Source of the DNA: Prevotella sp.
GTDB taxonomy: Bacteria > Bacteroidota > Bacteroidia > Bacteroidales > Bacteroidaceae
Direction of reading: 5' to 3'
Length of the DNA: 64,000 nt
Assembly (NCBI GenBank): GCA_017475005.1
Contig: JAFVGI010000038.1
Coordinates: forward strand, 1-64,000
Below the pieces are notes generated by a model. That model saw only the letters and a program-made list of their open reading frames with translations, made no database searches and had not been told where the DNA came from. Made by a program: the position numbers and the translations under genes. This document shows positions 1,541 through 48,437 of this stretch, piece by piece; position 1 is the stretch's first letter, and the number at the start of each line of letters is the position of its first letter.

Positions 1541-1616
1541 AACTCTTCACTCTCAACTCTTCACTCTCAACTCTTCACTCTTAACTCTTAACTTCTCACT
1601 CTCAACTCTCAACTTA
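1541..1616. repeat. Heptamer repeat tract (AACTCTT/CACTCTC type)
   Basis: Ten or more consecutive 7-bp units, mostly AACTCTT alternating with CACTCTC and AACTCTC, all in one 7-bp phase. It fills the gap between the barrel gene and glnN, and on the coding strand reads as GAGAGTG/AAGAGTT units. No reading frame or protein signal is evident. Confidence 0.9.
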
Positions 1617-1627
1617 CCAAAACCTCT

Positions 1628-1648
1628 CCTCCCATATCTCATGGGAGG
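1628..1648 (-). terminator. Hairpin downstream of the barrel gene
   Basis: An 8-bp perfect stem CCTCCCAT/ATGGGAGG with a 5-nt loop lies 20 bp after the barrel stop codon. On the minus strand only a weak T-run follows, so it may be a weak terminator, attenuator or RNA-stabilising hairpin rather than a full terminator. Confidence 0.45.
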
Positions 1649-1668
1649 GAGGAAAAGGTAAATAAAGA

Positions 1669-2379
1669 TTAGGGTTGCAGTGTGAACCCGAAAACTAGAT
1701 ATGCTTTCTGTGAACAAGGGTTACCTGTAACTTGTCCAAAAATAGGTATAGAAAATGAATCAGTAATCTTAATGTCTTTTGTAGCACGCAATGTCAGATT
1801 TGTTACAGCGAAGCCTGTAGTGCCATAGAATGTCGTAGCATAAGGCACGAAACCTGCTGTTGCTGACCAGTCAATCTTAGCGAGCGTGAATGGTACTGTT
1901 GCCTCGAAATAGCTACTGTAGGCACGTTTGCCCTTCTTGGTAAAGCCGTCGTTGCCAGCAAAGTTGGTGTACCACTGCAATGCAACAGGACCGAAGTCAT
2001 ATCCTACATTTGCTTCAAAAACATGGTTTGTACCATGAGCTCCGTACTTGAAGTACCTGCCATCTGGATCAAGACCTTCAGAGAACCAGTAGTCGGTGAT
2101 GCCGACATTGAACTTTCCGAGTGTATATGCCAGAGTCAAGTCAAACTCCTTCACATCGTCAGAATTTGTAAGACCATAGCTGCCCCACGCTGACAGGCTT
2201 AGACCTTTATAGCCAACGCCCAAAGTAGGCTGAACAGCGACACTACCCAAATCCTGACCACGCCAGATATATTGGTTAACGAAATCAGCACATATTGTGG
2301 TTTCTATTTTCTCAGCTTCCTGCGCATAAGCTGTTGCACCAGCAATCAGCATAAATGCAAATAAAACAATCTTTTTCAT
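1669..2379 (-). CDS. Outer-membrane beta-barrel protein in the PII-AmtB-GlnN group
   Basis: A 236-residue exported protein. The chosen start is MKKIVLFAF; an upstream in-frame ATG at 2406 would add nine residues and spoil the signal peptide. Residues 1-19 form a signal peptide ending A-Y-A. The rest alternates polar and aromatic residues, with motifs such as YIWRGQDLG, LSLSAWGSYGL and a C-terminal strand ending FGFTLQP, as in small porin-like barrels (TorF-like putative porins). Function is unknown. Its place between amtB and glnN suggests that it belongs to the ammonium-assimilation group, perhaps letting a nitrogenous solute across the outer membrane. That is inference from position only. 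Barrel nature is fairly sure, the substrate is not. Confidence 0.7.
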   Translation of the reverse strand: MKKIVLFAFMLIAGATAYAQEAEKIETTICADFVNQYIWRGQDLGSVAVQPTLGVGYKGLSLSAWGSYGLTNSDDVKEFDLTLAYTLGKFNVGITDYWFSEGLDPDGRYFKYGAHGTNHVFEANVGYDFGPVALQWYTNFAGNDGFTKKGKRAYSSYFEATVPFTLAKIDWSATAGFVPYATTFYGTTGFAVTNLTLRATKDIKITDSFSIPIFGQVTGNPCSQKAYLVFGFTLQP

Positions 2380-2397
2380 ATCTTTAATAATTAAATT

Positions 2398-2467
2398 ATA
2401 ATTCATAATTCATAATGCATAATGCATATTTTCTATAAACTTTAAACTATAAACTCTAAACTAGTTA
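2398..2467. repeat. Heptamer repeat tract joining two unit types (ATAATTC then CTATAAA)
   Basis: Ten contiguous heptamers: four of ATAATTC/ATAATGC type, one transitional ATATTTT, then CTATAAA/CTTTAAA/CTCTAAA types, and a last unit CTAGTTA that contains the amtB stop codon. The two unit types share one uninterrupted 7-bp phase. Confidence 0.92.
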
Positions 2468-3717: not shown

Positions 3718-3767
3718 AATCCAGAAATTTTTTGTGTTTGTGTTGTGTTTGTGTTGTTGTCTCTAAA

Positions 3768-4115: not shown

Positions 4116-4143
4116 AAATTGTCATTTTTACCTTATTAATATT

Positions 4144-4153
4144 AACCGCGGTT
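4144..4153. promoter_or_regulatory. Palindrome AACCGCGGTT in the PII leader
   Basis: A perfect 10-bp palindrome just downstream of the predicted transcription start of the PII gene. It is a possible operator for a nitrogen regulator, but no protein can be named from sequence. Confidence 0.3.
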
Positions 4154-4175
4154 GCTTTCCTTAAGCTTTCGAGTG

Positions 4176-4207
4176 CAAAATTACGACATTTTGTTATAAT
4201 ACGCAAG
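4176..4207 (-). promoter_or_regulatory. Promoter of the PII-amtB group
   Basis: On the minus strand, CTTG and TAATTTTG are separated by exactly 20 bp. This matches the Bacteroidetes primary sigma consensus TTTG-N19/21-TAnnTTTG. The PII start codon lies about 60 bp downstream. Confidence 0.75.
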
Positions 4208-4385: not shown

Positions 4386-4417
4386 AAAAAAGCAGCCGCT
4401 CATAACCGAACGACTGC
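4386..4417 (-). terminator. Rho-independent terminator after dapL
   Basis: On the minus strand, GCAGTCGTTC pairs with GAGCGGCTGC (two G-U pairs) across a 6-nt loop and is followed by a six-base T run. It ends the gltB-gltD-dapF-dapL unit. Confidence 0.8.
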
Positions 4418-4431
4418 CTAAGAAGATTATT

Positions 4432-4480
4432 ATAAACTTAAAACTATAAACGCTAAACTCTCAACTCTAAACTATCCACT
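4432..4480. repeat. Heptamer repeat tract (TAAAACT/CTAAACT type)
   Basis: Seven consecutive 7-bp units such as ATAAACT, CTAAACT and CTCAACT between the dapL terminator and dapL. The last unit touches the dapL stop codon. Confidence 0.88.
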
Positions 4481-5714: not shown

Positions 5715-5722
5715 CGTTACTC

Positions 5723-5750
5723 AATTTTAAATTTTGAATTATGAATTAAC
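5723..5750. repeat. Heptamer repeat tract between dapF and dapL
   Basis: Four 7-bp units AATTTTA, AATTTTG, AATTATG and AATTAAC. The dapF stop codon lies within the tract, which runs towards the dapL start. Confidence 0.8.
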
Positions 5751-6562: not shown

Positions 6563-7921
6563 TTATTTGCTGAGAAATTTATCAACCTTCTGGGCTGTCT
6601 GCTTGCCGCTGGCCATAGCGCGAACGACGAGGCTGGCACCATTCGCAGAGTCGCCACAGACGAAGACGTTCTTTGAGTATTCTGGATGTTCTGGCTTGAG
6701 GAATCCCATAGCCAGCAGAACCAGCTCGGCCTTGATGATTTCGGGCTTACCCTTCTCTACCATAATGGGGCGACCACCCTCTGGGTTTGGCTTCCAGTCA
6801 ATCTCCTGCACCTTTACGCCAGTCAGCTTGCCATCCTTGCCAAGAAACTCGAGCGTATTGATGTTCCAACGGCGGGTACAACCTTCTTCGTGCGAAGAGG
6901 TAGTCTTGAGGGTGCGAGGCCAGTTAGGCCAAGGATTCTGTGGGTCCTCAGGACCTTCAACAGGCTTAGGCATAATCTCAATTTGAGTCACACTCTTACA
7001 TCCCTGACGATGGGCAGTACCAATACAGTCAGAACCAGTATCACCACCACCAATCACAAGTACGTCCTTGTCCTTGGCCGTGATGCGCTCATCTTTCGAG
7101 AACTCCATACCGGCCAAAACGCGGTTCTGCTGAGACAGCAACTCGAGAGCGAAGTGCACACCCTTCAATTCGCGGCCAGGGGCTTTGAGATCACGGGCTG
7201 TCGGAGTTCCTGTACTGATTACGACGGCGTCGTAGTCTGAGGTCAGAGGTGAGAGATCAGAGGTGAGAGAGATGTCCTGACCATACTTGAATTCGACGCC
7301 TTCTTTCTCAAGCAGGGCTATGCGGCGGTCGATGATAGCCTTATTAAGCTTGAAGTTTGGAATACCATAGCGGAGCAGTCCGCCGGCAGCTTCGTTCTTC
7401 TCAAATACTGTAACTGTATAGCCCATCAGGTTCAGGTCATTGGCAGCAGCCAGTCCGGCAGGACCGGCACCAATAACAGCAACCTTCTTGCCATTGCGCT
7501 CGATGTTCGTCTTGGGCTGTATATACCCCTCACGGAAAGCACCCTCGATGATGGCGCACTCATCCTCCCTATTGGTGGTTGGCTCGTGGTTGAAGCGGTT
7601 CAGCACACAGGCTTTCTCACAAAGTGCAGGACAGATGCGACCAGTAAACTCTGGGAAGGGATTCGTAGAGGTCAACAGCTTAAAGGCCATTTCCCAGTCA
7701 CCCTTGTATAGAGCATCATTCCATTCTGGGGCTTTGTTGCCCAGCGGACAAGCCCAATGACAGAAGGGCACGCCACAATCCATGCAGCGTGATGCCTGCA
7801 GTTTACGTTCGCGAGTGCTGAGCGTCTGCTCTACCTCGCCAAAATCGTGGATTCTATCGTGAATCGGACGGTATCCCGCCTCCTGGCGGTGTATCTCTAA
7901 AAATGCTTTTGGATTTCCCAT
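6563..7921 (-). CDS. gltD: Glutamate synthase small subunit
   Basis: NADPH-dependent flavoprotein that passes electrons to GltB for glutamate synthesis. 452 residues. N-terminal Fe-S cysteines are at 46, 49, 54 and 58 ([14 protein letters not shown]) with a second set in [14 protein letters not shown]-binding [17 protein letters not shown] (about 147-163) and NAD(P)-binding [17 protein letters not shown] follow. About residues 217-229, just before [11 protein letters not shown], read [10 protein letters not shown] and are encoded by an in-frame heptamer tract (7239-7273), replacing the usual short linker between FAD-domain strands. The upstream gap to gltB is itself a heptamer tract with no clear ribosome binding site. 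Confidence 0.96.
7239..7273. repeat. In-frame heptamer repeat tract inside gltD
   Basis: Five consecutive 7-bp units (GAGGTCA, GAGGTGA, GAGATCA, GAGGTGA, GAGAGAT on the plus strand). On the coding strand it encodes a peptide with a 7-residue period, SDLSPLT then SDYD. Confidence 0.88.
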
Positions 7922-7927
7922 TTTGAC

Positions 7928-7960
7928 AATTGAAAATTGAGAATTGAGAATTGAAAATTA
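7928..7960. repeat. Heptamer repeat tract between gltB and gltD
   Basis: Units AATTGAA, AATTGAG, AATTGAG, AATTGAA then AATTA, whose last bases are the gltB stop codon. It forms nearly the whole intercistronic gap of 36 bp. Confidence 0.92.
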
Positions 7961-10900
7961 GTAGTCGCGCTGGATATTGGCGATCTTCTCCTGTAGTTTC
8001 TTATTCTGCTCTTCTTGCAGAACGCGCTTGTACTCGATAGGTACTACCTGTACGAATTCCTCGCAGTAGTGATTCCAGTCGTCGAGCATACGACCAGCCA
8101 ATGCAGAACCTGTGTGCAGATAGTGCTGACGGATGAGTTCGAGCAGTTCCTTGCGCGATACGCTGTCCTCAACAAGGTTGATTTCAACCATATCCATATT
8201 ACAGAAGTAGTCAAACGTATGGTCTGGGTCATAGACGTATGCCACACCGCCCGACATACCAGCGGCGAAGTTACGACCTGTCTTACCCAGTACGACAACA
8301 CGTCCACCAGTCATATACTCACAGCAGTGGTCGCCGGCACCTTCTATCACAGCGATGGCACCAGAGTTACGCACACCAAAGCGCTCGCCCACCTTACCAT
8401 TGATATAGAGTTCACCAGAGGTGGCACCATACAGGCCTGTGTTACCAGCGATGATGTTATCCTCAGCATGGAATTCCTCATCACTTCGAGCTGGAGGCAG
8501 AATAGAGATGCGACCGCCTGAAAGTCCTTTTCCAAAGTAGTCGTTACACTCGCCTTCGAGCTTCAGGTTAACACCCTTCACAGCAAATGCGCCAAAGCTC
8601 TGACCGGCTGAGCCCTTGAACTTGATATTAATAGTACTATCCGGCAGACCTGCCTCACCATATTTCTTGGCGATGACGCCAGAGAGCATAGTAGTAACGG
8701 CACGATCAGTATTCTTGATGGTGTAGTCGAGTATCACCTCCTCGCCACCGTTGATAGCCTTCTCTGCAGCCTTGATAATCTCTTCGTCCTTCACACCACT
8801 GACCTTAGTAAAGGCGCCACGATCCCAGAACAAAGACTTGTCTGTCTCAGGTTTATGCAGCAGACGACCAAAGTCGATAGTCTTCTGCTTATCAGTAGCA
8901 TTGGCAGTGTCAACCTCTATCAGTTCTGTGTGACCGATAATATCCTTCAGACTCTTCACACCAATCTCGCTGAGGTACTCGCGCACCTGTTCAGCCAGGA
9001 AGGTAAAGAAGTTTACGACGTACTCGGCACGACCTTCGAAGTGCTTACGCAGTTCAGGATTCTGTGTTGCCACACCCATCGGACAGGTATTGGTGTTACA
9101 CTTACGCATCATCACACAACCCAGCACAATCAGGGGCAGCGTGCCAAATGAGAACTCGTCAGCACCCAGCATAGCCATAACGATGACGTCTTTGGCAGTC
9201 TTCAGCTGACCGTCGGTTTGCAGGCGCACCTGATTACGCAGACCGTTGATAACGAGTGTCTGCTGTGTCTCTGCGAGACCTATCTCAGGACTGATACCAG
9301 CAAAGCGCATAGAACTTGCAGGACTTGCACCTGTACCACCTTCGGCACCAGAGATAACGATGAGGTCGGCCTTAGCCTTAGCAACACCAGCAGCGATGGT
9401 TCCTACACCACTCTCGGCAACGAGCTTCACGCTGACGGCAGCTGTTGGGTTGATATTCTTCAAGTCGAAGATGAGCTGAGCCAGGTCCTCAATACTATAG
9501 ATATCGTGATGAGGTGGAGGTGAGATGAGCGAGATACCAGGAATAGCATTTCGCGTCTTGGCAATAATCTCGTTCACTTTGAAGCCAGGCAGCTGACCAC
9601 CCTCACCAGGCTTAGCACCCTGTGCCACCTTAATCTGTATCTCTTCGGCATTCACCAGGTACTCGGCTGTCACACCAAAACGTCCTGATGCTATCTGCTT
9701 GGTCTTACTTGAAAGGCTCACGCCGTCCACCTCTGTATGATAGCGGGCATTGTCTTCACCACCCTCACCAGTGTTAGAGCGTGCACCCAACTTGTTCATG
9801 GCGAGTGCCAAAGCCTCGTGGGCCTCGATACTCAGAGCACCAAAACTCATAGCACCTGTTACGAAGTGCTTTACGATGCTCTCAACGGGCTCCACCTCGT
9901 CGATTGGCGTTGGTTTGGCAGCCTTCTTGAATTTGAAGAAGTCGCGGATGAAGATTGGGCTTTCCTTCTCATCTACCTGAGCTGCCCACTCCTTGAATTT
10001 CTTATAGCTACCCAGACGTGTTGCCAATTGCAGGTTAGCAATCGTCTCAGGATTCCAAGCATGCTTGATACCGTCCTTACGCCAAGCAAACTGACCTTGG
10101 TTCTGGAGCATAGCCTGCTCCTTAGCCTGCTCGTGCAGACGGATAGCATCACGTGCTATCTCCTTCAGGCCTACACCACCTATGGTGCTCACCTCTGTGC
10201 CAAAGTAGCGACGCAGCAGGTCTTCACTTAATCCAATAGACTCGAAAATCTTGGCACCACGATAAGAACGGATGGTACTGATACCCATCTTACTCATAAT
10301 TTTCTTCAAGCCTTTATCTACGGCCTTGATATAGTGAGCCTCTGCGGTAGCGTAATCTTCCTGAATCTTTCCTTTCTTTACTAGGTCGTCGAGCACTGCG
10401 AATGTCATATAAGGACAAATAGCACTTGCGCCATAGCCCAGCAACAGAGCAGCATGCATCACCTCGCGAATCTCACCGCTCTCAACAATCAGGGCTGTCT
10501 GTACACGCTTGCCCACGCTAATTAAATAGTGGTGAACGGCACTTACTGCCAGCAATGATGGGATAGCAGCGTGCTTGTCGTCAATGTCGCGATCAGAGAG
10601 AATGATATAGTTGACTCCTTCGTCAACGCTAGCCTCTGCATCGTGGCACAGTTTATCGAGGGCCTTACGCAGGCCATCCTCACCTTGTGCCATCTCGAAC
10701 AGCATAGCCAACTTCTGGGTCTTGAATCCCTTATAGCGGATGTTACACAGTATATCGAGCTGTGTATTGGTCAAGACTGGCTGTGGCAGGCGAACCATCT
10801 TACAGTTCGATGCATCAGGCGTCAAGATGTTGGTTCCTACGGCTCCGATGTACTCCGTCAAACTCATTACCAACTCCTCACGGATAGGGTCGATGGCAGG

Positions 10901-19348: not shown

Positions 19349-19369
19349 AGTGAAGAATGAGAAGCAATA
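19349..19369. repeat. Short heptamer run at the carA start
   Basis: Three units AGTGAAG, AATGAGA, AGCAATA between the asnB stop and the likely carA ATG. It supplies the only purine-rich ribosome binding region for carA. Confidence 0.5.
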
Positions 19370-22242
19370 TGAATGACGCAAAACTGATACTGGATAATGG
19401 GGTCATCTTTTACGGAAAGAGTTTTGGTTACGAAGGCAATACATCAGGAGAGGTTGTCTTCAACACAGCCATGACAGGATATCCCGAAAGTCTTACTGAC
19501 CCAAGTTATGCTGGACAGATATTAGTGATGACATATCCCCTCGTGGGCAACTATGGTGTTCCTTCCACAGAGATTGCAGATAATGGATTGCCTCTGTTCA
19601 TGGAGAGTGACAAGATACATGTCAAAGCACTCATCGTTGCTGACTACAGCAACGACTATTCCCACTGGAATGCACAAAACTCCCTGGCATCGTGGTTGAA
19701 GGAAGAAAAGATTCCTGCTCTTACAGGCATTGATACACGCCGCCTCACGAAGATAATCCGTGAACATGGTGTGATGAAAGGAAGAATAGAAATAAGTGAA
19801 GAGTTAAGAATTAAGAGTGAAGAATCATCAGATTACGGATCTATCAACTGGGTCGAGAAAGTATCCTGCAAAGACGTAATCACCTACAAACCCGAAAATT
19901 CTCAATTGTCAATTATCAATTCTCAATTGAAAAAAGTCGTGCTAGTCGATTGCGGCGTAAAGGCTAACATCATACGTTGTCTGTTAAGACGAGGCGTTGA
20001 GGTAATTCGTGTGCCTTGGGATTATGACTTCAACCAATTGGAGTTTGATGGTCTATTCCTTGCCAACGGTCCTGGTGACCCTGAGCGTTGTGATATAGCA
20101 GTACAGCATATCCGTCAGTTCCTCAACAACGAACAAGTGCGCCCTTGCATGGGAATATGTCTGGGTAACCAGTTGCTTGCCCGTGCTGCAGGAGCAAAGA
20201 CATACAAGCTTAAGTACGGACATCGTTCTCATAACCAACCAGTGCAGCAGGTTGGCACCACAAAATGTTTCATAACATCCCAAAATCACGGATATGCCGT
20301 AGATGACAACACCCTACCAGAAGATTGGGAACCACTGTTCGTAAATATGAACGACGGTTCAAATGAAGGCATACGCCACAAAACGAATCCTTGGTTCTCA
20401 GCACAGTTCCATCCAGAGGCCTGCTCCGGCCCTATTGATACAGAGTGGATGTTTGATGAATTCGTGTCTCTATTAGAGGTCGGAGGCAAGAATTCAGAAG
20501 TTAGAGATTCCCAACTTTCACCTCTCAACTCTCACCTTTCAACTTTCACCTCTCAACTCCCCAAGAAGGTTCTCCTTCTTGGCTCTGGTGCCCTGAAGAT
20601 TGGTCAGGCAGGAGAATTTGACTATAGCGGCTCACAAGCCCTGAAGGCACTGAAAGAAGAAGGCATAGAGACAGTACTCATCAATCCTAATATTGCGACA
20701 GTACAGACCTCCGAAGGCATTGCCGACAAAGTATATTTCCAGCCCGTCCGTGCTGATTTCGTTGAGCGTGTCATTGCTCAGGAACGTCCTGACGGCATTC
20801 TCCTCTCCTTTGGCGGACAGACGGCCCTCAACTGCGGCGTGGAGTTGTATCAGAATGGTGTCCTCGAACGCTACGGCGTGCAGGTTCTCGGAACACCTAT
20901 CCAGGCCATCATCGATACAGAAGACCGCGACTTGTTCGTAAAACGTCTTAATGAGATAGATGTCAAGACGATAAAGAGTGAGGCTTGCAACACCATCGAA
21001 GAGGTGAAGAAGGCTGCCACAGCCCTTGGATATCCTGTTATCCTGCGTGCTGCATACGCTCTCGGAGGACTGGGTTCTGGATTCTGTGATAATGAGGAAC
21101 AACTGCTCCGTCAGGCAGAAGAAGCATTCTCTTTCTCGCCACAGATTCTCGTAGAGAAATCTCTCAAGGGATGGAAGGAGATAGAGTACGAAGTGGTGCG
21201 TGACAAATACGACAACTGCATCACTGTCTGTAACATGGAAAACTTTGACCCACTCGGCATACATACCGGTGAGTCGATAGTAGTAGCCCCCAGTCAGACA
21301 CTCTCCAATGCCGAATACCATAAGCTGCGTGCCATCGCCATCAAGATAATACGCCATATCGGTATCGTGGGCGAATGTAATGTGCAGTATGCCCTCGACC
21401 CTGAGTCGGAGGATTATCGCGTCATTGAAGTCAATGCACGTCTCAGCCGTTCCTCTGCCCTTGCATCAAAAGCCACAGGCTACCCTCTCGCCTTTGTGGC
21501 AGCAAAACTGGGATTGGGATATGGACTCTTCGAACTCAAGAATTCCGTCACCAAGACGACCACAGCATTCTTTGAGCCAGCACTCGACTATGTAGTATGT
21601 AAGATACCACGCTGGGACCTCACCAAGTTCCAAGGTGTAAACCACCAATTGGGTTCTTCAATGAAGAGTGTAGGAGAAATAATGGCTATCGGGCGCACCT
21701 TTGAAGAATCCATACAGAAAGGACTGCGTATGATAGGACAGGGCATGCACGGCTTCGTGGATAACCACGAAATAAAAATCAACGACATCGCTGCCGAGCT
21801 CCACTCCCCTACTGACACACGAATCTTTGCAGTAGCGAAAGCACTCCAGATGGGATATACCATAGAGCAGATACACAAGCTCACGATGATAGACCGTTGG
21901 TTCTTGCAAAAGCTGAAATACATTGTTGACATCAACCACGCCCTGCAGGAATATTCCCACCTGTCAGAGTTGTATCAGTTCCTGCCGCAAAGTGAGATGT
22001 TGGAGTATGTTGAAGAAGAAGACTTCCTTACCCTCCTTTACGATGCAAAGGTATATGGTTTCTCCGACTTCCAGATAGCGCGAGCACTGGGTTTCGAGAC
22101 ATATTTCAATATGGAGAAAGCTGGTCTCATCATCCGCCAGTGGAGAAAGGAATACGGCATCCTACCACTCGTAAACCAGATAGACACCCTCGCGGCAGAA
22201 TATCCCGCCCAGACGAACTATCTGTACCTTTCATACGTATAA
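19369..22242 (+). CDS. carA-carB: Fused carbamoyl-phosphate synthase: CarA joined to the N-terminal half of CarB
   Basis: One 957-residue frame (start MNDAKLILDNG; ATG at 19357 is an alternative). Residues 1-373 are the CarA small subunit, with amidotransferase nucleophile Cys264 (GICLGNQ) and His348/Glu350 (QFHPEACSG). Residues about 374-398 are a linker encoded by a heptamer tract (SQLSPLN-SHLSTFT-SQLP). Residues 399-957 are the first half of CarB: VLLLGSGALKIGQAGEFDYSG, the carboxyphosphate ATP-grasp domain, then the oligomerisation domain ending TNYLYLSY. CarB is normally about 1070 residues; the carbamoyl-phosphate ATP-grasp and allosteric domains are absent and no frame downstream restores them. 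Two further in-frame heptamer tracts lie within CarA (about residues 142-155 and 176-188). Either this copy is non-functional or half-CarB works as a dimer. Confidence 0.88.
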   Translation: MNDAKLILDNGVIFYGKSFGYEGNTSGEVVFNTAMTGYPESLTDPSYAGQILVMTYPLVGNYGVPSTEIADNGLPLFMESDKIHVKALIVADYSNDYSHWNAQNSLASWLKEEKIPALTGIDTRRLTKIIREHGVMKGRIEISEELRIKSEESSDYGSINWVEKVSCKDVITYKPENSQLSIINSQLKKVVLVDCGVKANIIRCLLRRGVEVIRVPWDYDFNQLEFDGLFLANGPGDPERCDIAVQHIRQFLNNEQVRPCMGICLGNQLLARAAGAKTYKLKYGHRSHNQPVQQVGTTKCFITSQNHGYAVDDNTLPEDWEPLFVNMNDGSNEGIRHKTNPWFSAQFHPEACSGPIDTEWMFDEFVSLLEVGGKNSEVRDSQLSPLNSHLSTFTSQLPKKVLLLGSGALKIGQAGEFDYSGSQALKALKEEGIETVLINPNIATVQTSEGIADKVYFQPVRADFVERVIAQERPDGILLSFGGQTALNCGVELYQNGVLERYGVQVLGTPIQAIIDTEDRDLFVKRLNEIDVKTIKSEACNTIEEVKKAATALGYPVILRAAYALGGLGSGFCDNEEQLLRQAEEAFSFSPQILVEKSLKGWKEIEYEVVRDKYDNCITVCNMENFDPLGIHTGESIVVAPSQTLSNAEYHKLRAIAIKIIRHIGIVGECNVQYALDPESEDYRVIEVNARLSRSSALASKATGYPLAFVAAKLGLGYGLFELKNSVTKTTTAFFEPALDYVVCKIPRWDLTKFQGVNHQLGSSMKSVGEIMAIGRTFEESIQKGLRMIGQGMHGFVDNHEIKINDIAAELHSPTDTRIFAVAKALQMGYTIEQIHKLTMIDRWFLQKLKYIVDINHALQEYSHLSELYQFLPQSEMLEYVEEEDFLTLLYDAKVYGFSDFQIARALGFETYFNMEKAGLIIRQWRKEYGILPLVNQIDTLAAEYPAQTNYLYLSYV
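19795..19829. repeat. In-frame heptamer repeat tract 1 inside carA
   Basis: Units AGTGAAG, AGTTAAG, AATTAAG, AGTGAAG then AATCATC. Encodes a charged stretch SEELRIK-SEESS with a 7-residue period. Confidence 0.88.
19897..19931. repeat. In-frame heptamer repeat tract 2 inside carA
   Basis: Units AATTCTC, AATTGTC, AATTATC, AATTCTC, AATTGAA. Encodes NSQLSII-NSQL directly before the amidotransferase domain strand KKVVLVDCG, that is, at the boundary between the two CarA domains. Confidence 0.9.
20511..20559. repeat. Heptamer repeat tract at the CarA-CarB junction
   Basis: Seven contiguous units: CCAACTT then TCACCTC, TCAACTC, TCACCTT, TCAACTT, TCACCTC, TCAACTC. It occupies the place where a carA stop and carB start would be expected and is open in the frame that joins them. 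Confidence 0.93.
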
Positions 22243-22564: not shown

Positions 22565-22687
22565 ATGGATAAAAAGAATTTTTGGCAGATGCTGGCGAAG
22601 GTAATAGTAGCGGCACTAACGGCTGCATTGACAGCAATAACAACTACATCATGTATGGGATATGGCCCATTAACGGTTAAAGGTTAG
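22565..22687 (+). CDS. Smalltalk family peptide
   Basis: A 40-residue peptide, MDKKNFWQMLAKVIVAALTA followed by a second hydrophobic stretch and TTTSCMG. The pattern of a charged N-terminus with a Trp, a hydrophobic AALTA segment and a terminal SCM matches the Bacteroidales smalltalk proteins, tiny peptides of unknown function normally found between an HU-like DNA-binding gene and an N-acetylmuramoyl-L-alanine amidase. No amidase follows here, and the HU-like relic is 3.6 kb away on the other strand. The last residues (LTVKG) and stop come from a GGTTAAA/GGTTAGC heptamer tract that may have replaced the original end. Confidence 0.7.
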   Translation: MDKKNFWQMLAKVIVAALTAALTAITTTSCMGYGPLTVKG

Positions 22688-22697
22688 CGGTTAGCGA
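22670..22697. repeat. Heptamer repeat tract at the smalltalk stop
   Basis: Units TTAACGG, TTAAAGG, TTAGCGG, TTAGCGA. The smalltalk stop codon is within the third unit. Confidence 0.85.
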
Positions 22698-27631: not shown

Positions 27632-28687
27632 TTAGTTTGTTGGAACGACAGGGATGATGTTGCCGTTCTTATCGAACTTCATGGCATCGATGCACACTTC
27701 CCTATGGGTGCCTGGTACGCCGTTGCCGGCATTTACGAATTGTGGATTGATGCGATGATATACTATGCGCCAGTCGTCACGATAAGTTACATTATTGATG
27801 CCGTTCTTTCCCTTCTTCACCTTTGACGGCAGGAGGATAACGGAATTGTGCGCTGTACCGTAAATCTTCTGGTCAGGCACCTGAGAGATTACCATATAGT
27901 GGTTTTCGTCTATGCTGATGGGACCAAGCGGAGAAGCGCTTGTGCCGTAGCATACATGATAGTTTGGAGAACCTGTATCGTCAACCGACCACATGAAGTA
28001 ATACTTGCCCTTACGATAAAAGACATAGGCGCCTTCTCTGTATGCCCACGTCTGCAGGCTACCGCCCTTAGGAGTAAGGTTAACCTTTGTCTCGGGCTTG
28101 ATGCTTACCATATCGTCATTGAGCTCTGCACCAGCCATAAAGCCGTTGCCCCAATAGAGGTAATACTTACCGGAAACAGGATCTTGGAACACATCGACAT
28201 CGATGGCCTGTCCACCTCTCAATCCCTCAGGTCTGTCGGCATCGGTAACGATAGGGTTATCGAGAGCCTTGAAAGGTCCTACGGGGCTGTCGCTGATGGC
28301 GCAGCTTATCTCCTTGCGGTTTGACTTTGGATTATGGGCAGAGAAATAGAAGTAGTACTGATATTTCACGCTCTTGTCTGCTGCAACAGTCTTGCGCTCT
28401 ATGATACATGGAGCCCACGCATTACCAGTAGCCCAAGGCACCTGGTCGCTCTTGGCATCGAGCATCACACCTTCATCCTTCCATGTCTTCAAATCGTCGG
28501 AAGAGAACACGCTAAAGGTCCATCCTCCCCAGCCTGGCAGGCCGTCGGTGGTGCTATAGATATAATACTTTCCTGTCTGCTCAGCAAACAGCACTTCCGG
28601 GTCTGCATGAAAACCTGGCAGAACAGGATTACCGGCATACATAAACAATGCTGACAATGTAGCCGCAAATGTGGTAAGGAGTTTCAT
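27632..28687 (-). CDS. Glycoside hydrolase family 43 protein
   Basis: Secreted five-bladed beta-propeller glycosidase, 351 residues, signal peptide about 1-18. The catalytic base is Asp29 in VLPGFHADPEVLF. The pKa-modulating Asp lies in QAIDVDVFQDP and the acid Glu in YREGAYVFYRKGKYYFMWS. GH43 enzymes mostly act as alpha-L-arabinofuranosidases, beta-xylosidases or related exo-enzymes on plant polysaccharides; the substrate cannot be told here. No SusC/SusD pair is adjacent, so it is not in a polysaccharide utilisation locus in this window. The upstream gap to hslR is a heptamer tract, and the next gene follows directly. Confidence 0.88.
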   Translation of the reverse strand: MKLLTTFAATLSALFMYAGNPVLPGFHADPEVLFAEQTGKYYIYSTTDGLPGWGGWTFSVFSSDDLKTWKDEGVMLDAKSDQVPWATGNAWAPCIIERKTVAADKSVKYQYYFYFSAHNPKSNRKEISCAISDSPVGPFKALDNPIVTDADRPEGLRGGQAIDVDVFQDPVSGKYYLYWGNGFMAGAELNDDMVSIKPETKVNLTPKGGSLQTWAYREGAYVFYRKGKYYFMWSVDDTGSPNYHVCYGTSASPLGPISIDENHYMVISQVPDQKIYGTAHNSVILLPSKVKKGKNGINNVTYRDDWRIVYHRINPQFVNAGNGVPGTHREVCIDAMKFDKNGNIIPVVPTN

Positions 28688-28691
28688 ATTT

Positions 28692-28733
28692 GGTTAAGGG
28701 TTAACGGTTAGCGGTTAGCGTTAATTATGAATT
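28692..28733. repeat. Heptamer repeat tract between hslR and GH43
   Basis: Units GGTTAAG, GGTTAAC, GGTTAGC, GGTTAGC, then GTTAATT and ATGAATT: two unit types in one phase. The hslR stop codon is at its edge and the tract fills the 44-bp gap. Confidence 0.92.
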
Positions 28734-29172: not shown

Positions 29173-29173
29173 A

Positions 29174-29201
29174 GAGAGGTGAGAGGTAAGAGGTAATTAT
29201 G
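29174..29201. repeat. Heptamer repeat tract between queF and hslR
   Basis: Units GAGAGGT, GAGAGGT, AAGAGGT, AATTATG; contains the queF stop codon and runs to the hslR start. Confidence 0.8.
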
Positions 29202-39525: not shown

Positions 39526-39580
39526 AGTGAAGAGTGAAGAATAATTATAAATTTTCAATTATCAATTTTCAATATACAAA
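39526..39580. repeat. Heptamer repeat tract before recA
   Basis: Eight contiguous units moving from AGTGAAG through AATAATT and ATAAATT to TTCAATT/ATCAATT, ending directly at the recA ATG. It leaves recA without a recognisable Shine-Dalgarno sequence. Confidence 0.92.
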
Positions 39581-40624
39581 ATGGCAGACGAAAACAAACT
39601 TAAGGCCCTCGCCGCTGCGATGGCGAAAATAGAGAAAGACTTCGGTAAGGGTGCTATCATGAAGCTCGGTGACGAGAAGATAGAAAATGTCGAAGTGATA
39701 CCATCTGGTTCTCTCGGACTTGACATAGCTCTCGGCGTAGGCGGTTATCCACGAGGACGTATCATCGAAATATATGGTCCTGAGTCATCAGGTAAGACAA
39801 CTCTCGCCCTCCATGCAATGGCAGAGGTGCAGAAGACTGGCGGCATTGCTGCTTTCATAGATGCCGAGCATGCCTTTGACCGCTTCTATGCTGCCAATCT
39901 GGGAGTAGATGTCGATAATCTCTTCATCTCACAGCCCGACAACGGAGAGCAGGCTCTGCAGATTGCTGACCAGCTCATTTCTTCGGCTGCCGTTGACATC
40001 ATCGTCATCGACTCTGTTGCTGCTCTGACACCAAAGGCAGAGATTGAGGGCGAGATGGGTGACAATAAGGTAGGCCTGCAGGCACGCCTGATGTCACAGG
40101 CTCTGCGAAAGATGACCTCTACCATAGCAAAGACAAACACCACCTGTATCTTCATCAACCAGTTGCGTGAGAAAATTGGTGTGATGTTCGGCAACCCAGA
40201 GACAACAACGGGTGGTAACGCCCTGAAGTTCTACGCTTCTGTCCGCATCGACGTCAGAAAGGCTACACCTATAAAGAATGGTGATGAGATAATCGGTAAC
40301 CTCACAAAGGTAAAGATTGTAAAGAACAAGGTAGCACCTCCTTTCCGCAAGTGCGAATTCGACATTTTGTATGGCAGCGGTGTCAGCAGAGTTGGTGAAA
40401 TCCTCGACATAGCGGTAAACAAGGGTATCGTCAAGAAGACCGGTTCATGGTTCTCTTACGGCCAGTCAAAACTAGCTCAGGGTCGCGAGGCATGCGTCAG
40501 ATTGCTGAAAGACAATGTGGAACTTTGCGAAGAATTAGAAGCAAAGATAAAGGTAACGCCAGACCCTGTCAAGGAAAAAGGCGCCAAAGGCAAAGCAGAA
40601 GAAACAGAAGCAGATAATGCATAA
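39581..40624 (+). CDS. recA: Recombinase RecA
   Basis: ATP-dependent strand exchange and SOS co-protease. 347 residues, normal. Walker [10 protein letters not shown] (about 67-75), Walker B region [20 protein letters not shown], loop L2 region [20 protein letters not shown] and [12 protein letters not shown]. The acidic C-terminal tail ([10 protein letters not shown]) ends in codons that are part of a heptamer tract. The start codon directly abuts another heptamer tract. Confidence 0.99.
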
Positions 40625-40634
40625 TTCATAATTC
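40614..40634. repeat. Heptamer repeat tract between recA and pepT
   Basis: Units ATAATGC, ATAATTC, ATAATTC. The first encodes the last residues of RecA and the stop codon spans the first and second; the pepT ATG is four bases after the tract. Confidence 0.8.
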
Positions 40635-40638
40635 TTCG

Positions 40639-43382: not shown

Positions 43383-45782
43383 ATGAACTATAGCATCAAG
43401 CATCCAGAGAACGAGGGCGGTATGAACGGTCGCATAAGGCGGCTGCGCCAGCAGAATTTCGATACACCGACAACACTCAGTATCGAACGTGCTCTCATCG
43501 AGACCGAGTTCTACAAGAAATACTACGGCACAATGCCGACACCGGTACTGCGCGCCCGAAACTTCTACGAGATATGCAAGAAGAAGACTCTCTACATCGG
43601 TGACGACGAACTCATCGTGGGCGAACGCGGACCTGTGCCAAAGGCGGTGCCGACTTTCCCTGAGCTGACGTGCCACTCTGTGGAGGACCTGCACACCCTC
43701 GACACCCGCGAGCTGCAGAGCTACCACATCTCCCAGGAGGACATAGACACCTACGAACGCGAGGTGATACCATACTGGGCCGGCAAGACACAGAGGGAGC
43801 GTATCTTCAACCATGTATCGAAGGAATGGGAAGAGGCATATCATGCCGGAGTGTTTACGGAGTTCATGGAACAGCGTGCAGCAGGACATACCGCTATGGA
43901 TGGAAAGATGTACCATACTGGTCTGCTGGAAGTAAAAGAGCGCATACAACAGCGCATCAAGGCTCTCGACTATATCAACGACCCTGAAGCAACGGACAAG
44001 CAGCAGGAATTGGAGGCGATGGAGATATCATGCGATGCAGCCATTCTCTTTGCAGAGAGGCACGCCGACCTTGCAGAACAGATGGCGAGCAAGGCGACCA
44101 ACCCACAGCGCAAGGAGGAACTGAAGAAAATTGCGGACGTTTGCCGATGGGTTCCGGCTCACGCACCACGCGATATGTGGGAGGCTATACAGATGTACTG
44201 GTTCGTTCATCTAGGTACGGTGACGGAGTTGAACGGATGGGACTCCATGAATCCCGGGCACATCGACCAGCACCTATTCCCATTCTACGAAAAGGGGCTT
44301 GCCGAAGGCACACTGACACGCGACAAGGCGAAGGAACTTCTGTCGTGCTTGTGGATAAAATTCAACAACCAGCCTGCTCCTCCGAAGGTAGGTGTTACGG
44401 CATTGGAGTCAGGTACATACAACGACTTCACCAACATCAACATCGGAGGCATTGACCGCGAGGGCAAAAGCGGCGTGAACGAGCTGTCGTACATGATTCT
44501 GGAGATACAGGAGGAGCTACACCAGCTACAGCCAGGCCTCAGCATACACATTGCCAAGAACACTCCCGACGACTTTTTGACGACTGGTCTGAAGGTGATA
44601 CGTCTGGGTCACGGATACCCAAGCATCTTCAATCCCGACACCTACGTGGAGGAGATGACGCGTGCCGGCAAGAGCATCGAGGATGCCCGCGAGGGTGGAT
44701 GCTCCGGATGCATCGAGGTGGGAGCTTTCGGCAAAGAAGCATACCTGCTGACGGGTTACCTGAATACCCCAAAGATTCTGGAGATAACGCTGAGCAACGG
44801 CATCGACCCCGAGACAGGAAGGAAATTGGGACTCAAAACGGGCGACCCACGAACATTCAAGAACTTCGAGGAACTCTACGAAGCGTGGCGCAAGCAGATG
44901 GAGTATTTCGTAAACCTGAAACTCTCCGTCAACAACTACATCGAGCGTATGTTCTCGCTCTATGCCCCTGCCACATTCCTCAGCCTCTACATCGATGACT
45001 GCATAGAGAAGGGCCGCGACTACTACAGCGGCGGAGCACGCTACAATACGACATACATACAGTGTACAGGTCTCGGCACCATTACCGACTGCTTCACAAC
45101 GCTGAAGAAACACGTCTTCGAGGAAGGGCGCTACACTATGGACGAGATACTTGAGGCTTGCAGAAGCAATTGGGAGAATGAGGAAAAGATGCGCCTCTAC
45201 ATTCGCAACCACACACCATTCTTCGGCAATGATGACGCCTATGCCGACGACATCGCCGTGAGGGTTTATGATGACCTGGTGAAGGCTGTTGAGGGACATC
45301 CCAACACACGCGGTGGACAGACACACCTAAATATGCTTTCTACCACCTGCCACAACTACTTCGGTTCTGTATGCGGCGCTACGCCTAACGGACGCTTTGC
45401 GCACTTCGCCATCAGCGATGGCACATCACCAGCTCACGGCAGTGACTCACACGGTCCTACGGCGGTAGTAAAGTCTCTGGGCAAACTCGACCAGACAAAG
45501 AGTGGCGGTACGCTGCTCAATGTGCGCTTCACACCGCAGCTGTTTAGGCGTGATGAGGATGTGAAGAAATGTGCCAGTCTCATACGCACTTACTTCAAGT
45601 TCGGCGGTCACCACATACAGTTCAACATCGTGGATACAGAGACGCTGCTGGATGCCCAAAAGCATCCTGACAATTACCGTGACCTGCTGGTGCGCGTGGC
45701 GGGTTATTCTGACTATTTCAATGATATGACGGAACAGCTGCAGAACGAAATCATTGCCCGCACAGAAAACGAGGTTTGTTAA
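43383..45782 (+). CDS. hypD: Glycyl radical enzyme, probably trans-4-hydroxy-L-proline dehydratase
   Basis: Anaerobic radical enzyme of the pyruvate formate-lyase superfamily, 799 residues. The glycyl radical site is Gly774 in VRVAGYSDYF, and the catalytic thiyl Cys443 with general-base Glu445 lies in GGCSGCIEVGAFGKEAYLL. The single active-site cysteine followed by x-E marks an eliminase (dehydratase or lyase) rather than formate-lyase. The GCSGC-x-EVGAFGKEAY context is as remembered for 4-hydroxyproline dehydratase (HypD) of gut bacteria, which makes pyrroline-5-carboxylate. proC, often beside hypD, is not here. A DASS transporter precedes and the activase follows. The exact substrate is moderately sure. 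Confidence 0.8.
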   Translation: MNYSIKHPENEGGMNGRIRRLRQQNFDTPTTLSIERALIETEFYKKYYGTMPTPVLRARNFYEICKKKTLYIGDDELIVGERGPVPKAVPTFPELTCHSVEDLHTLDTRELQSYHISQEDIDTYEREVIPYWAGKTQRERIFNHVSKEWEEAYHAGVFTEFMEQRAAGHTAMDGKMYHTGLLEVKERIQQRIKALDYINDPEATDKQQELEAMEISCDAAILFAERHADLAEQMASKATNPQRKEELKKIADVCRWVPAHAPRDMWEAIQMYWFVHLGTVTELNGWDSMNPGHIDQHLFPFYEKGLAEGTLTRDKAKELLSCLWIKFNNQPAPPKVGVTALESGTYNDFTNINIGGIDREGKSGVNELSYMILEIQEELHQLQPGLSIHIAKNTPDDFLTTGLKVIRLGHGYPSIFNPDTYVEEMTRAGKSIEDAREGGCSGCIEVGAFGKEAYLLTGYLNTPKILEITLSNGIDPETGRKLGLKTGDPRTFKNFEELYEAWRKQMEYFVNLKLSVNNYIERMFSLYAPATFLSLYIDDCIEKGRDYYSGGARYNTTYIQCTGLGTITDCFTTLKKHVFEEGRYTMDEILEACRSNWENEEKMRLYIRNHTPFFGNDDAYADDIAVRVYDDLVKAVEGHPNTRGGQTHLNMLSTTCHNYFGSVCGATPNGRFAHFAISDGTSPAHGSDSHGPTAVVKSLGKLDQTKSGGTLLNVRFTPQLFRRDEDVKKCASLIRTYFKFGGHHIQFNIVDTETLLDAQKHPDNYRDLLVRVAGYSDYFNDMTEQLQNEIIARTENEVC

Positions 45783-45783
45783 T

Positions 45784-45818
45784 AATTGACAGTTGACAAT
45801 TGACAATTGGAAATTAGA
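45784..45818. repeat. Heptamer repeat tract between the radical enzyme and its activase
   Basis: Units AATTGAC, AGTTGAC, AATTGAC, AATTGGA, AATTAGA, starting two bases after the stop codon of the enzyme gene. The following TTGAAC repeats lead to the activase TTG start. Confidence 0.88.
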
Positions 45819-45838
45819 CTCTTGAACGTTTTGAACTT

Positions 45839-46747
45839 TTGAGACCTGTAGTCTTCGACATAAAGCGTTACGCCCTTAACGATGGCCCTGGCATCCGCAC
45901 GACGATATTCTTCAGCGGTTGCCCGTTGCGTTGCGTGTGGTGCCACAATCCCGAATCATGGGATGCACACCCTCACAAGATGTACAAGCAGAAAAAATGC
46001 ATCGGCTGTCTGTCGTGCGTAGACGCATGCCCCGAGGGAGCCATTACGCTGACTGCTGACGGCATACGTCCCGTAGAAGGTGTGAAATGCCTGCGCTACG
46101 GACGTTGTGCCAGCGAGTGTCCGACCCTCGCCCTGGAGATGTGCGGAAGGGAATGGAGCATGGAAGAGCTAATGGCAGAGATAGAGAAAGAACGCGATAT
46201 CATGACCGACAGCGGTGGCGGTGTGACATTATGCGGCGGCGAGCCGCTGTTTCAGCCGGAGGCAACAATAGCGGTGCTTGATGAGTTGGGACGACGAGGG
46301 TTTCATCGCACGGTAGATACCACCCTCTTTGCCGACCCCGAAATAGTACGCGAGGTGGCAAAGCGCTGCGAGCTGCTGCTGGTGGATATGAAGATTATGG
46401 ACCCTGACCTCCACCGCCGCTATACGGGCGTTTCCAACGAGAGGATCCTCGACAACCTGCGACTCATAGCAGAACTCGGCACACCATACTATGTGCGCAT
46501 ACCTCTCATTGAGGGCATCAATGCCGACGAATCGAATATAGAGGCAACGACAGCCTTCCTCGACAGTTTGCCAAATCATAAGGGACTTTGCGGCGTCAAC
46601 CTGCTGCCCTATCATGACGTAGGGCGCGACAAACACCGCCGCCTGTGGTCAATATATAACCCTGACGGCCTCACGATGTCTGCCCCAAGCGATGAAACAA
46701 TGCAGCGGTGCGCAGAACAATTTAAGAAACACGGGTATAACGTTTAA
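45839..46747 (+). CDS. Glycyl radical enzyme activase (radical SAM)
   Basis: Installs the glycyl radical on the upstream enzyme using S-adenosylmethionine. 302 residues. Radical SAM cysteines 28, 32 and 35 (GCPLRCVWC). A ferredoxin-like insert has Cys54, 57, 60, 64 and Cys84, 90, 94, as in activases of eliminase-type radical enzymes. GGGVTLCGGEPL is the SAM-binding stretch. The only start that keeps the conserved N-terminus (VVFDIKRYALNDGPGIRTTI) is TTG at 45839; there is no ATG nearby, and the preceding DNA is repeat-derived, so the original start may have been altered. Confidence 0.92.
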   Translation: MRPVVFDIKRYALNDGPGIRTTIFFSGCPLRCVWCHNPESWDAHPHKMYKQKKCIGCLSCVDACPEGAITLTADGIRPVEGVKCLRYGRCASECPTLALEMCGREWSMEELMAEIEKERDIMTDSGGGVTLCGGEPLFQPEATIAVLDELGRRGFHRTVDTTLFADPEIVREVAKRCELLLVDMKIMDPDLHRRYTGVSNERILDNLRLIAELGTPYYVRIPLIEGINADESNIEATTAFLDSLPNHKGLCGVNLLPYHDVGRDKHRRLWSIYNPDGLTMSAPSDETMQRCAEQFKKHGYNV

Positions 46748-46762
46748 CGGTTAAAGGTTATT
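46742..46762. repeat. Heptamer repeat tract between convergent stop codons
   Basis: Units GTTTAAC, GGTTAAA, GGTTATT. Contains the activase stop codon and reaches the stop of the minus-strand Lnb-NlpC gene. Confidence 0.75.
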
Positions 46763-48437
46763 GTCCTACTCTTCGGGCGCCGAGATAGCGCTGGGCATAA
46801 TAAGTATCTGTAGAACGCGATATGACAACGCCGCCACGGCTGCTGGAATGAATGAAGAGAAAGGTGTCAGCAGACCTATCAACCTCCGTCACTATTCCCA
46901 CATGGCCTACGTCAGAACCTATCGTGCTACCAGAGAAAAACACCAAATCACCCGGACGTATTTGATTGCGCTTAATGGGAGTGTTGCGGGCATATTGGTC
47001 ACGCGAAGAGCGTCCGATGGAGATACCTTTCAGTCCATAGACATAGCTGGTAAAGCCGGAGCAGTCGAAGCCGCGAGGGTCTGCACCGCCGCTGCGATAT
47101 TTCGTGCCAAGAAGCGACATTGCCTGAGAAAGAACGGCATCATTCTGCACCTTCCTAATGCCATAAACATCATCTTTTGCCACTCTTGAAGAACTGTGAC
47201 AGGAAGCAAATAATAAGCTAAGAGTGAAAAGTGAAAAGTGAAGAATAGGGGATGAAGACTTTTTCCTCAGATTTATATTTAACAAGGCCATGCAACCGAG
47301 GACGCAGCCAAGCATTACGACTCCTTCGGCATAGCTTTGCACAAAGCCCATCACGAGGAACAGTACTGCACAGCCGAGGATTATTTCCCAACGATGCTGC
47401 ACCCCACACTTAGGATGAGCAAGCCAGAAGAGAAGCGGATTGAAAATGAGTATCTGGAAATTCAGAGACACTGTGGGATGCTGAGAGAACAGCATACAGA
47501 ATAGCAATATTCCCGGAACGGCATAGAGACAGCAGATTGCGTAGTCGATGTAAGGTGAGAGGTGAAAGGCGAAAGGTGAAAGGCGAGAGATAAAGAATCT
47601 CTTTACGATGCACCAGATGATGATGATGACAGACAGAATGGCGCAGACGTCGAAGGGACTCAGCGGAAAGCCCTTCATCGGCTCAAAGTGTGGTGTTCCG
47701 GACTTAAGAACAACGATGTCTTCATCGACAAGCTTTCGCTTATTGCCGTCAAAATCGACTACGAAGGTATGGTTGAAGTCACTCATGAGGCGATCCGGAA
47801 TAAACTCAGCCTCGTAGTTTGTAGTCTTCACATCTGACAACACACCAAGCAGGAAATCATTCCCCCACTCTGCCCAAGGCGAACTGGCCGTCTTCTGGTG
47901 TATCAACTCACGATACGTCAGCGGATTATCGTCAGGACGCTCCACCACCTTCTCGCCACTGATGGCACCGAGGATGATGTCACGAGCCTTCGTAGTGCAA
48001 TTGTTGTAGAAATAGTTATACCGATACTTTATGTTCTCGGGCCGCACGCTCTCTGCCAGAGCCGCCATAAAGACGCGTTTCTCCTCAGACGTCATGTTAA
48101 TGTGCTGCTGATGGACAGCGCTACCGAAATAGCGATATTCTGCAAGAAAATCACTATAATTGTATAACGCCATCATATAGTCGGTGAGACCGAAGACAAA
48201 GCGGAGCACGAAATTACTCTCCGAAGAGTCGAAAGCGCCATAGTTGACGGCGATATCCATATTCTTCTGAGGATTAACGATACGTATTGCCGTATGACCA
48301 TAGAGGCTGTAAATCTCGTCATGCGGCTCACACGTCATGAGATACACCTGAATAGAATCATAGGACTCTGCCTTTGCCGTGCTACAGAAGCACATGCATA
48401 TAAAAAAAACCTTAAAAAGTAAAATAATTCGTTTCAC
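46758..48437 (-). CDS. Fusion of an Lnb-like (DUF4105) membrane protein and an NlpC/P60 peptidase
   Basis: 559 residues from a GTG start (VKRIILLFKVFF, signal peptide to AKA); an upstream ATG at 48551 lies beyond the promoter. Residues about 25-250 are a DUF4105/Lnb periplasmic domain with YGHTAIRI (His48) and NNCTTKARD (Cys147). Membrane segments occupy about 262-390. This is the layout of Lnb, the Bacteroides lipoprotein N-acyltransferase. Residues about 425-559 are an NlpC/P60 cell-wall peptidase with Cys459 (FDCSGF), His512 (GHVGI) and His530. The junction (about 396-413) is encoded by a heptamer tract and reads SLFTLSLLFASC, a lipobox-like signal. A second tract (about 285-296) lies between membrane segments. 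Confidence 0.82.
   Translation of the reverse strand: MKRIILLFKVFFICMCFCSTAKAESYDSIQVYLMTCEPHDEIYSLYGHTAIRIVNPQKNMDIAVNYGAFDSSESNFVLRFVFGLTDYMMALYNYSDFLAEYRYFGSAVHQQHINMTSEEKRVFMAALAESVRPENIKYRYNYFYNNCTTKARDIILGAISGEKVVERPDDNPLTYRELIHQKTASSPWAEWGNDFLLGVLSDVKTTNYEAEFIPDRLMSDFNHTFVVDFDGNKRKLVDEDIVVLKSGTPHFEPMKGFPLSPFDVCAILSVIIIIWCIVKRFFISRLSPFAFHLSPYIDYAICCLYAVPGILLFCMLFSQHPTVSLNFQILIFNPLLFWLAHPKCGVQHRWEIILGCAVLFLVMGFVQSYAEGVVMLGCVLGCMALLNINLRKKSSSPILHFSLFTLSLLFASCHSSSRVAKDDVYGIRKVQNDAVLSQAMSLLGTKYRSGGADPRGFDCSGFTSYVYGLKGISIGRSSRDQYARNTPIKRNQIRPGDLVFFSGSTIGSDVGHVGIVTEVDRSADTFLFIHSSSRGGVVISRSTDTYYAQRYLGARRVGQ
47216..47250. repeat. Heptamer repeat tract at the Lnb / NlpC-P60 junction
   Basis: Units AGCTAAG, AGTGAAA, AGTGAAA, AGTGAAG, AATAGGG (plus strand). 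In frame on the coding strand it encodes part of the hydrophobic segment that precedes the peptidase domain. Confidence 0.9.
47553..47594. repeat. In-frame heptamer repeat tract inside the Lnb-like domain
   Basis: Units AGGTGAG, AGGTGAA, AGGCGAA, AGGTGAA, AGGCGAG, AGATAAA. Encodes RLSPFAF-HLSPYI between two membrane segments. Confidence 0.9.

Follow-up and report, generated by a model that had tools for sequence, protein, structure and literature searches.

The stretch of DNA considered here (the window) comprises 64,000 nt, positions 1 to 64,000 of contig JAFVGI010000038.1 in assembly GCA_017475005.1 of a Prevotella sp., and contains a dispersed set of short tandem repeats with a step of 7 bp, referred to below as heptad tracts. 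Tandem Repeats Finder, run at score 30, returned 55 rows for the window, which by our own count represent 24 separate places with a period of 7 or 14, the last of them ending at 47586. A stricter, unit-blind caller, in which 17 of 21 bases must be equal at lag 7, finds 15 tracts, six of these lying within genes. The individual tracts are as follows.

1534..1614, + strand: heptad tract AACTCTT/CACTCTC with a 14 bp higher-order repeat, in a 181 bp gap
2391..2464, + strand: two fused heptad tracts filling the 54 bp gap after the ammonium transporter gene
4431..4475, + strand: heptad tract adjoining the stop codon at 4479
5720..5750, + strand: short heptad tract that overlaps the stop codon of the gene for diaminopimelate epimerase
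7235..7270, - strand: heptad tract TCTNACC, in frame within a GltD loop and also called in the relatives G041 and G013
7921..7963, - strand: heptad tract AATTNTC occupying the entire gltB-gltD gap between the stop codon and the start codon
16171..16203, + strand: heptad tract CAACTCT within gene 15872-17665, which has a weak glutamine amidotransferase match; detected by Tandem Repeats Finder and below the stricter threshold
19795..19823, - strand: in-frame tract (SEELRIKSEE) between the two CarA domains
19896..19930, + strand: in-frame tract (ENSQLSIINSQLK) between the two CarA domains
20512..20559, + strand: in-frame tract (SPLNSHLSTFTSQL) where CarA meets CarB in a fused open reading frame (ORF)
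22669..22697, - strand: tract GCTAACC in a long gap
28690..28724, - strand: tract GCTAACC/GTTAACC between the stop at 28732 and the start at 28687
29175..29196, no strand assigned: short tract within the gap 29173-29196, with the Tandem Repeats Finder unit AGAGGTA and below the stricter threshold
39526..39582, no strand assigned: two tracts of opposite orientation in the 63 bp gap before recA
40614..40634, no strand assigned: short ATAATTC tract spanning the stop of recA and below the stricter threshold
45779..45818, - strand: tract beginning in the stop codon of a pyruvate-formate-lyase-like gene, sense strand ATTGACA
47215..47247, - strand: in-frame tract in gene 46758-48536
47549..47589, - strand: in-frame tract in gene 46758-48536

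In the tract at 2391..2464 the first unit overlaps the stop codon of the ammonium transporter gene and the opposite end overlaps the next start. The ORF at 19369-22242 is CarA fused to the first half of CarB, with the second half of CarB outside the ORF. It aligns to residues 35-951 of a mitochondrial carbamoyl-phosphate synthase of 1489 residues, and its three heptad tracts fall at domain junctions. As the in-frame tracts of GltD and CarAB show, heptad repeats extend into the coding regions of core enzymes.

More than twenty strict 7 bp tracts had been reported in a first-pass annotation of the window. These are real, since all eight of the coordinate pairs it gave have a self-match of 0.71-0.88 at lag 7, and none exceeds 0.44 at lags 4-6 or 8-10. 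The uneven spread that it described holds in that no Tandem Repeats Finder tract lies past 47586, but this is partly trivial because gaps are scarce there. There are 517 intergenic bases in 47.6-64 kb compared with 3,931 upstream, so that about 3.4 tracts are expected in this part and the chance of finding none is 0.035.

Period and unit of the tracts

The genome of the window (G000; other genomes and loci are denoted by G and L numbers) is 2.36 Mb in 72 contigs, of which 464 kb was sampled as the window plus 20 stretches of 20 kb. The 20 kb stretches were taken from contigs known through a repeat-pattern search, therefore an upward bias in the counts is possible. The unit-blind caller finds 108 tracts of period 7 in this sample, against 12 of period 6, 4 of period 8 and 8 of period 9, and 0 tracts of period 7 in three simulated copies with the same block-wise first-order composition. 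The excess persists at all thresholds from 15 to 19 of 21. Scaled up from the sample, the 108 tracts correspond to several hundred places in the genome. The lack of an excess of period 7 over periods 6 and 8 had been named in the first-pass annotation as an outcome that would count against the family, and the counts for G000 are the reverse of this. Period 8 is likewise in the minority in G008, with 7 tracts against 27. A second, small excess is seen at period 11, with eleven tracts in the 464 kb sample and 0 of their bases in called genes.

A single strand-asymmetric unit is common to the 108 tracts; it reads TNTNAAY on one strand and RTTNANA on the complement. This was recovered by an unsupervised fit of a single 7-position profile with strand and phase left floating, the positions reading T, any base, T, any base, A, A or C, and C or T. 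The log-likelihood of the profile is 1639, compared with 1068 ± 26 for column-permuted tracts in 10 permutations and 1063 ± 21 in 5 further ones. No G runs are found among the 60 commonest units, and TAACTGA, in any rotation or on either strand, lies outside these 60. Differences between adjacent units peak at position 2 (0.30, against 0.11-0.17 at the other positions, in 464 pairs from which those with more than three differences are excluded). Unit identity falls with distance along the array, being 0.81, 0.79, 0.73 and 0.62 at lags 1 to 4 in the 54 tracts of at least five units, and 14 bp higher-order repeats are present in the Tandem Repeats Finder output. The greater likeness of neighbouring units agrees with the earlier suggestion of a 7 bp step with internal duplication.

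The units also recur between loci. There are 46 distinct modal units among the 108 tracts of G000, with 172 pairs of tracts having an identical modal unit where 13.5 are expected for 7-mers taken from the gaps of G000 (maximum 36 in 500 draws), an excess of about 13-fold. The corresponding observed and expected pairs are 12 and 0.7 in G008, 32 and 0.5 in G009, 43 and 0.8 in G061, and 475 and 1.2 in G042. Non-uniform 21-mers are common to different loci in 20 pairs, against 8.2 ± 2.9. The first-pass annotation had read the constant period and changing sequence as a process that copies 7 bp steps rather than selection on one motif. This description is not supported, because a single consensus can be fitted to the tracts and the recurrence of unit types between loci is far above chance, which is not predicted by purely local 7 bp copying.

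Purely local replication slippage, in which each tract has grown in place with 7 nt as the favoured slip length and nothing is copied between loci, would account for the 7 bp steps, the local homogenisation, the 14 bp higher-order pattern and the unique flanks of the G000 tracts. The polymerase-contact idea for a 7 nt slip (Mrazek 2007, as quoted in PMC4692102 and PMC4679880) is also in its favour. As the whole explanation it is nevertheless rather unlikely, given that modal units are identical between loci at 13 to about 400 times the level of same-genome gap 7-mers, and that one consensus fits the tracts.

Tract flanks are matched elsewhere in the sample in 8 of 216 cases in G000 and 2 of 62 in G061. 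Since the flanks in these two genomes are nearly all unique, it is the tract itself that recurs there and not a larger element. Heptads contained by chance in the modules of an ordinary dispersed element, similar to a repetitive extragenic palindrome (REP) or a miniature inverted-repeat transposable element (MITE), would describe much of G042, where an ATTCAAA array of about 39 bp is found at dozens of sites within larger mosaic repeats and 50 of 76 flanks are repeated. With the flanks of G000 and G061 as they are, such an element is a most improbable source of the tracts in general. The gaps of G042 (L264-L294) are mosaics of dispersed modules that include the ATTCAAA array, an array of the octamer RAGTTGAC and the palindrome GTAGGGACAGACGCCCTCGTCTGTCC, with some module copies 176 bp apart.

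Tracts at gene ends and stop codons

Genes were called with a home-made codon-usage caller, by which 91% of bases are coding. Of the 108 tracts in G000, 73 are in gaps, 30 are in genes and 5 are at stretch edges. Forty tract-bearing gaps leave 60 bp or more to spare, and in these the number of tracts no more than 12 bp from a gene end is 23, compared with 6.9 expected. Within genes the TNTNAAY sense predominates (21 of 30), this sense having 0.23 stops per unit in genes, and the tracts encode peptides such as ENSQLSIINSQLK.

Nineteen tracts in G000 adjoin start codons, in the two orientations 10:9, and the orientation ratio is 23:2 for those tracts of the cyanobacterial loci that lie no more than 12 bp from a start. 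These positions, together with the existence of a shared consensus, are those expected of cis-regulatory tandem binding sites for an RNA- or DNA-binding protein that tunes translation of the downstream gene. Such a role is improbable as the origin of the tracts. The 10:9 orientation in G000 speaks against it, as do the tracts in convergent gaps and inside genes, the occurrence of other units, 8-mers or no repeat in the same gap of other species, and the presence of 8 genomes among 60 of the genus that have no pattern hit.

At stop codons the tracts are polar. Among those overlapping a stop or beginning within 12 bp of it, G exceeds C on the coding strand in 139 and C exceeds G in 35 (p 7e-16). 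The pool comprises the tracts of G000 and its relatives plus those of 80 named loci from other bacteria, and p-values are nominal, as the named loci were chosen by heptad pattern and the tracts of one genome are not independent. The polarity is lost with distance, being 24:22 at 13-60 bp and 15:34 at 61-120 bp. Before the addition of G061 it stood at 65:25 for tracts with the stop outside the array, at 14:4 for few-stop units and, in convergent gaps, at 9:2 plus 14:2 (23:4 in all). Tract-free gaps have no lean to G after stops in G000 (59:80), the genus (108:151) or the named Bacteroidota loci (33:47). The stop codon is also in phase with the array in many cases. A stop triplet lies exactly 7 bp beyond the stop in 26 of the 47 stop-touching tracts of G000 (6.0 expected) and in 7 of 15 in G061 (2.6 expected). 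Polarity of this distance-limited kind is a quantitative rule that any mechanism must satisfy.

An R-loop or Rho cause of the polarity is disfavoured, as both predict persistence along the untranslated RNA and the ratio is already 24:22 at 13-60 bp. A polarity of the replication strand was likewise rejected. Forward hits in G061 reach 2.99 of 3.33 Mb, and the 31 tracts of a separate 20-stretch sample have no clear bias when compared with GC skew.

The arrays do not move the stop in the cases compared. Eight of 11 tract-bearing genes end within 2 residues of their ortholog, the remaining three being off by 13, 15 and 314 residues, the last probably through wrong pairing; one further gene, whose match ended far from its end, was dropped. 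That tracts run into genes to supply a new stop is unsupported as a general rule, since there is zero difference at the C-terminus in 5 of 11 genes with a tract and in 17 of 37 without.

Stops might still be selected for within the arrays. About one stop per 7 nt unit would place stops in all three frames after a gene, as a translation safety device. RTTNANA near stops has 0.84 stop triplets per unit and is mostly the coding strand there, and the polarity is limited to contact with the stop. However, permuted columns give 0.77 ± 0.03, so that stops are hardly selected, and a unit defined by stop codons is not supported. The values inside genes (0.81) and in mid-gap (0.85) are nearly equal to that near stops, and few-stop units share the polarity. 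A safety function is therefore improbable.

Comparison between genomes

The gltB-gltD gap was compared at 30 loci, including that of G000, gltD having been matched in 39 of 60 genomes. The end of gltB (DY-stop or EY-stop) and the start of gltD are conserved in the readable loci and the sequence of the gap differs. A heptad tract is called within about 170 bp upstream of gltD in 9 of the 30 loci, with locus L041 cut in the gap. The units, read by eye, include AATTNTC in G000, ATGTTCA in G013, ATTATCA in G022 and G007, and ATTAAGA on the other strand in G015. Other loci have 8-mers (G018 and G048) or no repeat, and gaps other than gltB-gltD show the same pattern of differing repeats. The identical, non-varying tracts that had been proposed as evidence against the family are thus not what is found between species. 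In G018 and G048 (L033 and L048) the arrays are of eight-base AAGGTAAA type, the step, by eye, not always being 7.

Three of the 30 loci have a called heptad tract in the loop of GltD. In two further genomes GltD is matched as two pieces (G044:C14:23983-25407 and G066:C18:68235-69662) that meet near the loop which bears the window's tract, as would result from a different or longer sequence at this point.

The related species G042 and G003 have 88-89% identity in the two longest blocks matched between them. Identity breaks within a few bases past the stop in the first region and within about 15 in the second, in each case into different repeats. A third region that was aligned differs in gene content and is uninformative on tracts.

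Unit sets are largely particular to a genome. Identical modal units make up 3-68% of the tract pairs within a genome and 0-2.2% of those between genomes in the five genomes sampled; the dominant units of G009, for example, are TGTCAAC, TGTCACC and TGTCAAT. The density of pattern hits in 60 genomes of the genus runs from 0 (8 genomes) to 168.5 per Mb, with a median of 24, overlapping hits within one tract being counted separately. A genus with densities from none to hundreds of hits, recurring unit sets, conserved gene ends and rapidly replaced gaps is a natural experiment on the writing of intergenic DNA.

Loss of mismatch repair was considered and rejected as the main cause of this range. A mutS1 match above cut-off is present in 52 of the 60 genomes and mutL in 56, G000 among them, several of the genomes being incomplete. 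The median density is 32.8 per Mb in the 8 genomes without mutS1 and 24.1 in the others (p 0.38). G009, which is 99% complete, and G000 have no mutS1 match above cut-off, a weak MutS-like match, and mutL.

Beyond the genus, a pattern of six TNTCAAY units is matched in about ten phylum-level groups by the record titles (80 of at least 118 matches being listed, many from metagenome-assembled genomes). Those listed are Cyanobacteria, Bacteroidetes, Clostridia/Firmicutes, Acidobacteria, Planctomycetota, Akkermansia, Ignavibacteriae, Desulfonema and other Deltaproteobacteria, Treponema and Caldithrix, the grouping of titles into phyla being our own presumption. The correlation of unit profiles with that of G000 is 0.89 for named Bacteroidota, 0.81 for G009, 0.68 for G008, 0.68 for other phyla, 0.65 for Firmicutes and 0.51 for Cyanobacteria. 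Identity of the unit across phyla is not claimed from these values, which lack a chance level and, for the named loci, come from a set already selected by the TNTCAAY pattern.

A trans-acting activity in the tract-rich lineages that writes or copies heptads from locus to locus would, if real, explain the degenerate consensus, the largely genome-specific unit sets, the spread of TNTCAAY over about ten phylum-level groups among the matches listed and the range of 0-169 hits per Mb. A candidate would be a polymerase or a template-switching repair path with a 7 nt step and a loose TNTNAAY preference. We regard such an activity as quite unlikely.

A proposed heptanucleotide satellite and known heptamer systems

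The tracts may be a passive, genome-wide heptanucleotide satellite that grows in 7 bp steps and is copied between gaps. This is the reading we prefer, with our judgement on it evenly balanced. We infer both the growth by 7 bp steps and the copying between loci, the latter from unit types that recur between loci with unique flanks. Arrays would grow via duplication in steps of 7 bp, and also of 14 bp, and units would pass from gap to gap within a genome through a process dependent on homology or template switching. Selection would then set where arrays persist, namely in gaps and at positions that overlap a stop codon or come directly after it. In genes it would mostly keep the few-stop orientation and, for three tracts of the window, the junctions between domains. 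At stops, the polarity would reflect arrays that were born on, or carried through, a stop codon, and it is read in this way because stop codons contain no C.

Several observations weigh against it. No copying event is seen directly, the relatives of the window being mostly 71-84% identical in DNA with their gaps turned over. The null for the shared 21-mers also destroys local order, hence some of that excess may be local duplication. Flanks are repeated in 11 of 46 cases in G009 and 7 of 54 in G008, in addition to those of G042, and unit sets are not strictly genome-specific, as the modal units of G000 and G061 coincide in 2.2% of pairs compared with 3.0% within G000. Period 8 rivals period 7 in the small samples of G001 (4 and 4) and G022 (4 and 5). 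The preference for gene ends is weak in G008 (3 of 16, 2.0 expected) and G009 (3 of 15, 0.9 expected), and phase-locking to the stop is non-significant in the other samples of the genus (4 of 23, 2.3 expected, p 0.28). Tract-free gaps do lean to G after stops in the cyanobacterial loci (65:39) and those of other phyla (27:16). With stop triplets barely above the permuted null, the consensus is not explained by stop codons. Lastly, GGGAATC units, which by our reading contain no stop codon, show the same stop-side polarity (Rehm 2015, PMC4692102).

In a literature search for which most subscription journals were out of scope, nothing was found on genome-specific unit sets, a degenerate shared unit, a distance limit to the polarity, or this genus. 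The STRR (short tandemly repeated repetitive) heptanucleotides of filamentous cyanobacteria are 7 nt tandem repeats in intergenic DNA, and the kinship in kind with heptanucleotide repeats elsewhere that had first been proposed is supported. Paludibacter propionicigenes is taken here to belong to the Bacteroidales. The first-pass annotation knew of no description of such repeats for this order, which needs some correction, as TAACTGA heptamers are listed in five Bacteroidetes including P. propionicigenes (MacGregor 2015, PMC4679880). According to Mrazek 2007, as reported in the same paper, 7 is the commonest unit length of long simple sequence repeats in most of the repeat-rich genomes studied. 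The causes and functions of heptamers are left open in the portions of PMC4679880 and PMC4692102 drawn on here.

The TAACTGA direct repeats occur in Beggiatoaceae, Cyanobacteria and some Bacteroidetes, and in the main genome studied they are mostly directly upstream of start codons (PMC4679880). The intergenic differences between two Cyanothece strains are mainly indels in 7 nt increments, and the S1, Csp and Csr families have been proposed as heptamer-binding proteins (PMC4679880). Like the tracts of the window, these repeats have a 7 nt unit and are dispersed, mostly intergenic and near starts, and one reverse set in Flexibacter lies just past the stop codon, as window tracts do (PMC4679880). 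They differ in having one fixed unit, with single-base variants rarely repeated in the main genome, whereas G000 has a loose consensus with its 46 modal units, many of the variants being repeated, and no one preferred orientation at starts.

The heptamers GGGAATC and GGGGA(C/T)T of Xanthomonas and Nostoc (PMC4692102) differ in another respect, in that the G runs of these units fold into quadruplexes in vitro and the common units of G000 are without G runs. They are described as having no leading or lagging strand preference. As here, they are mostly intergenic and near or over stops, and downstream of genes the G strand is the coding strand, which corresponds to the 139:35 ratio found at stops in this study. 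The same gene pairs vary in the length and sequence of the repeat between two species (PMC4692102), in a manner like the gltB-gltD gap. Heptamer tracts, their placement at gene ends and their stop-side polarity are therefore already known in other phyla.

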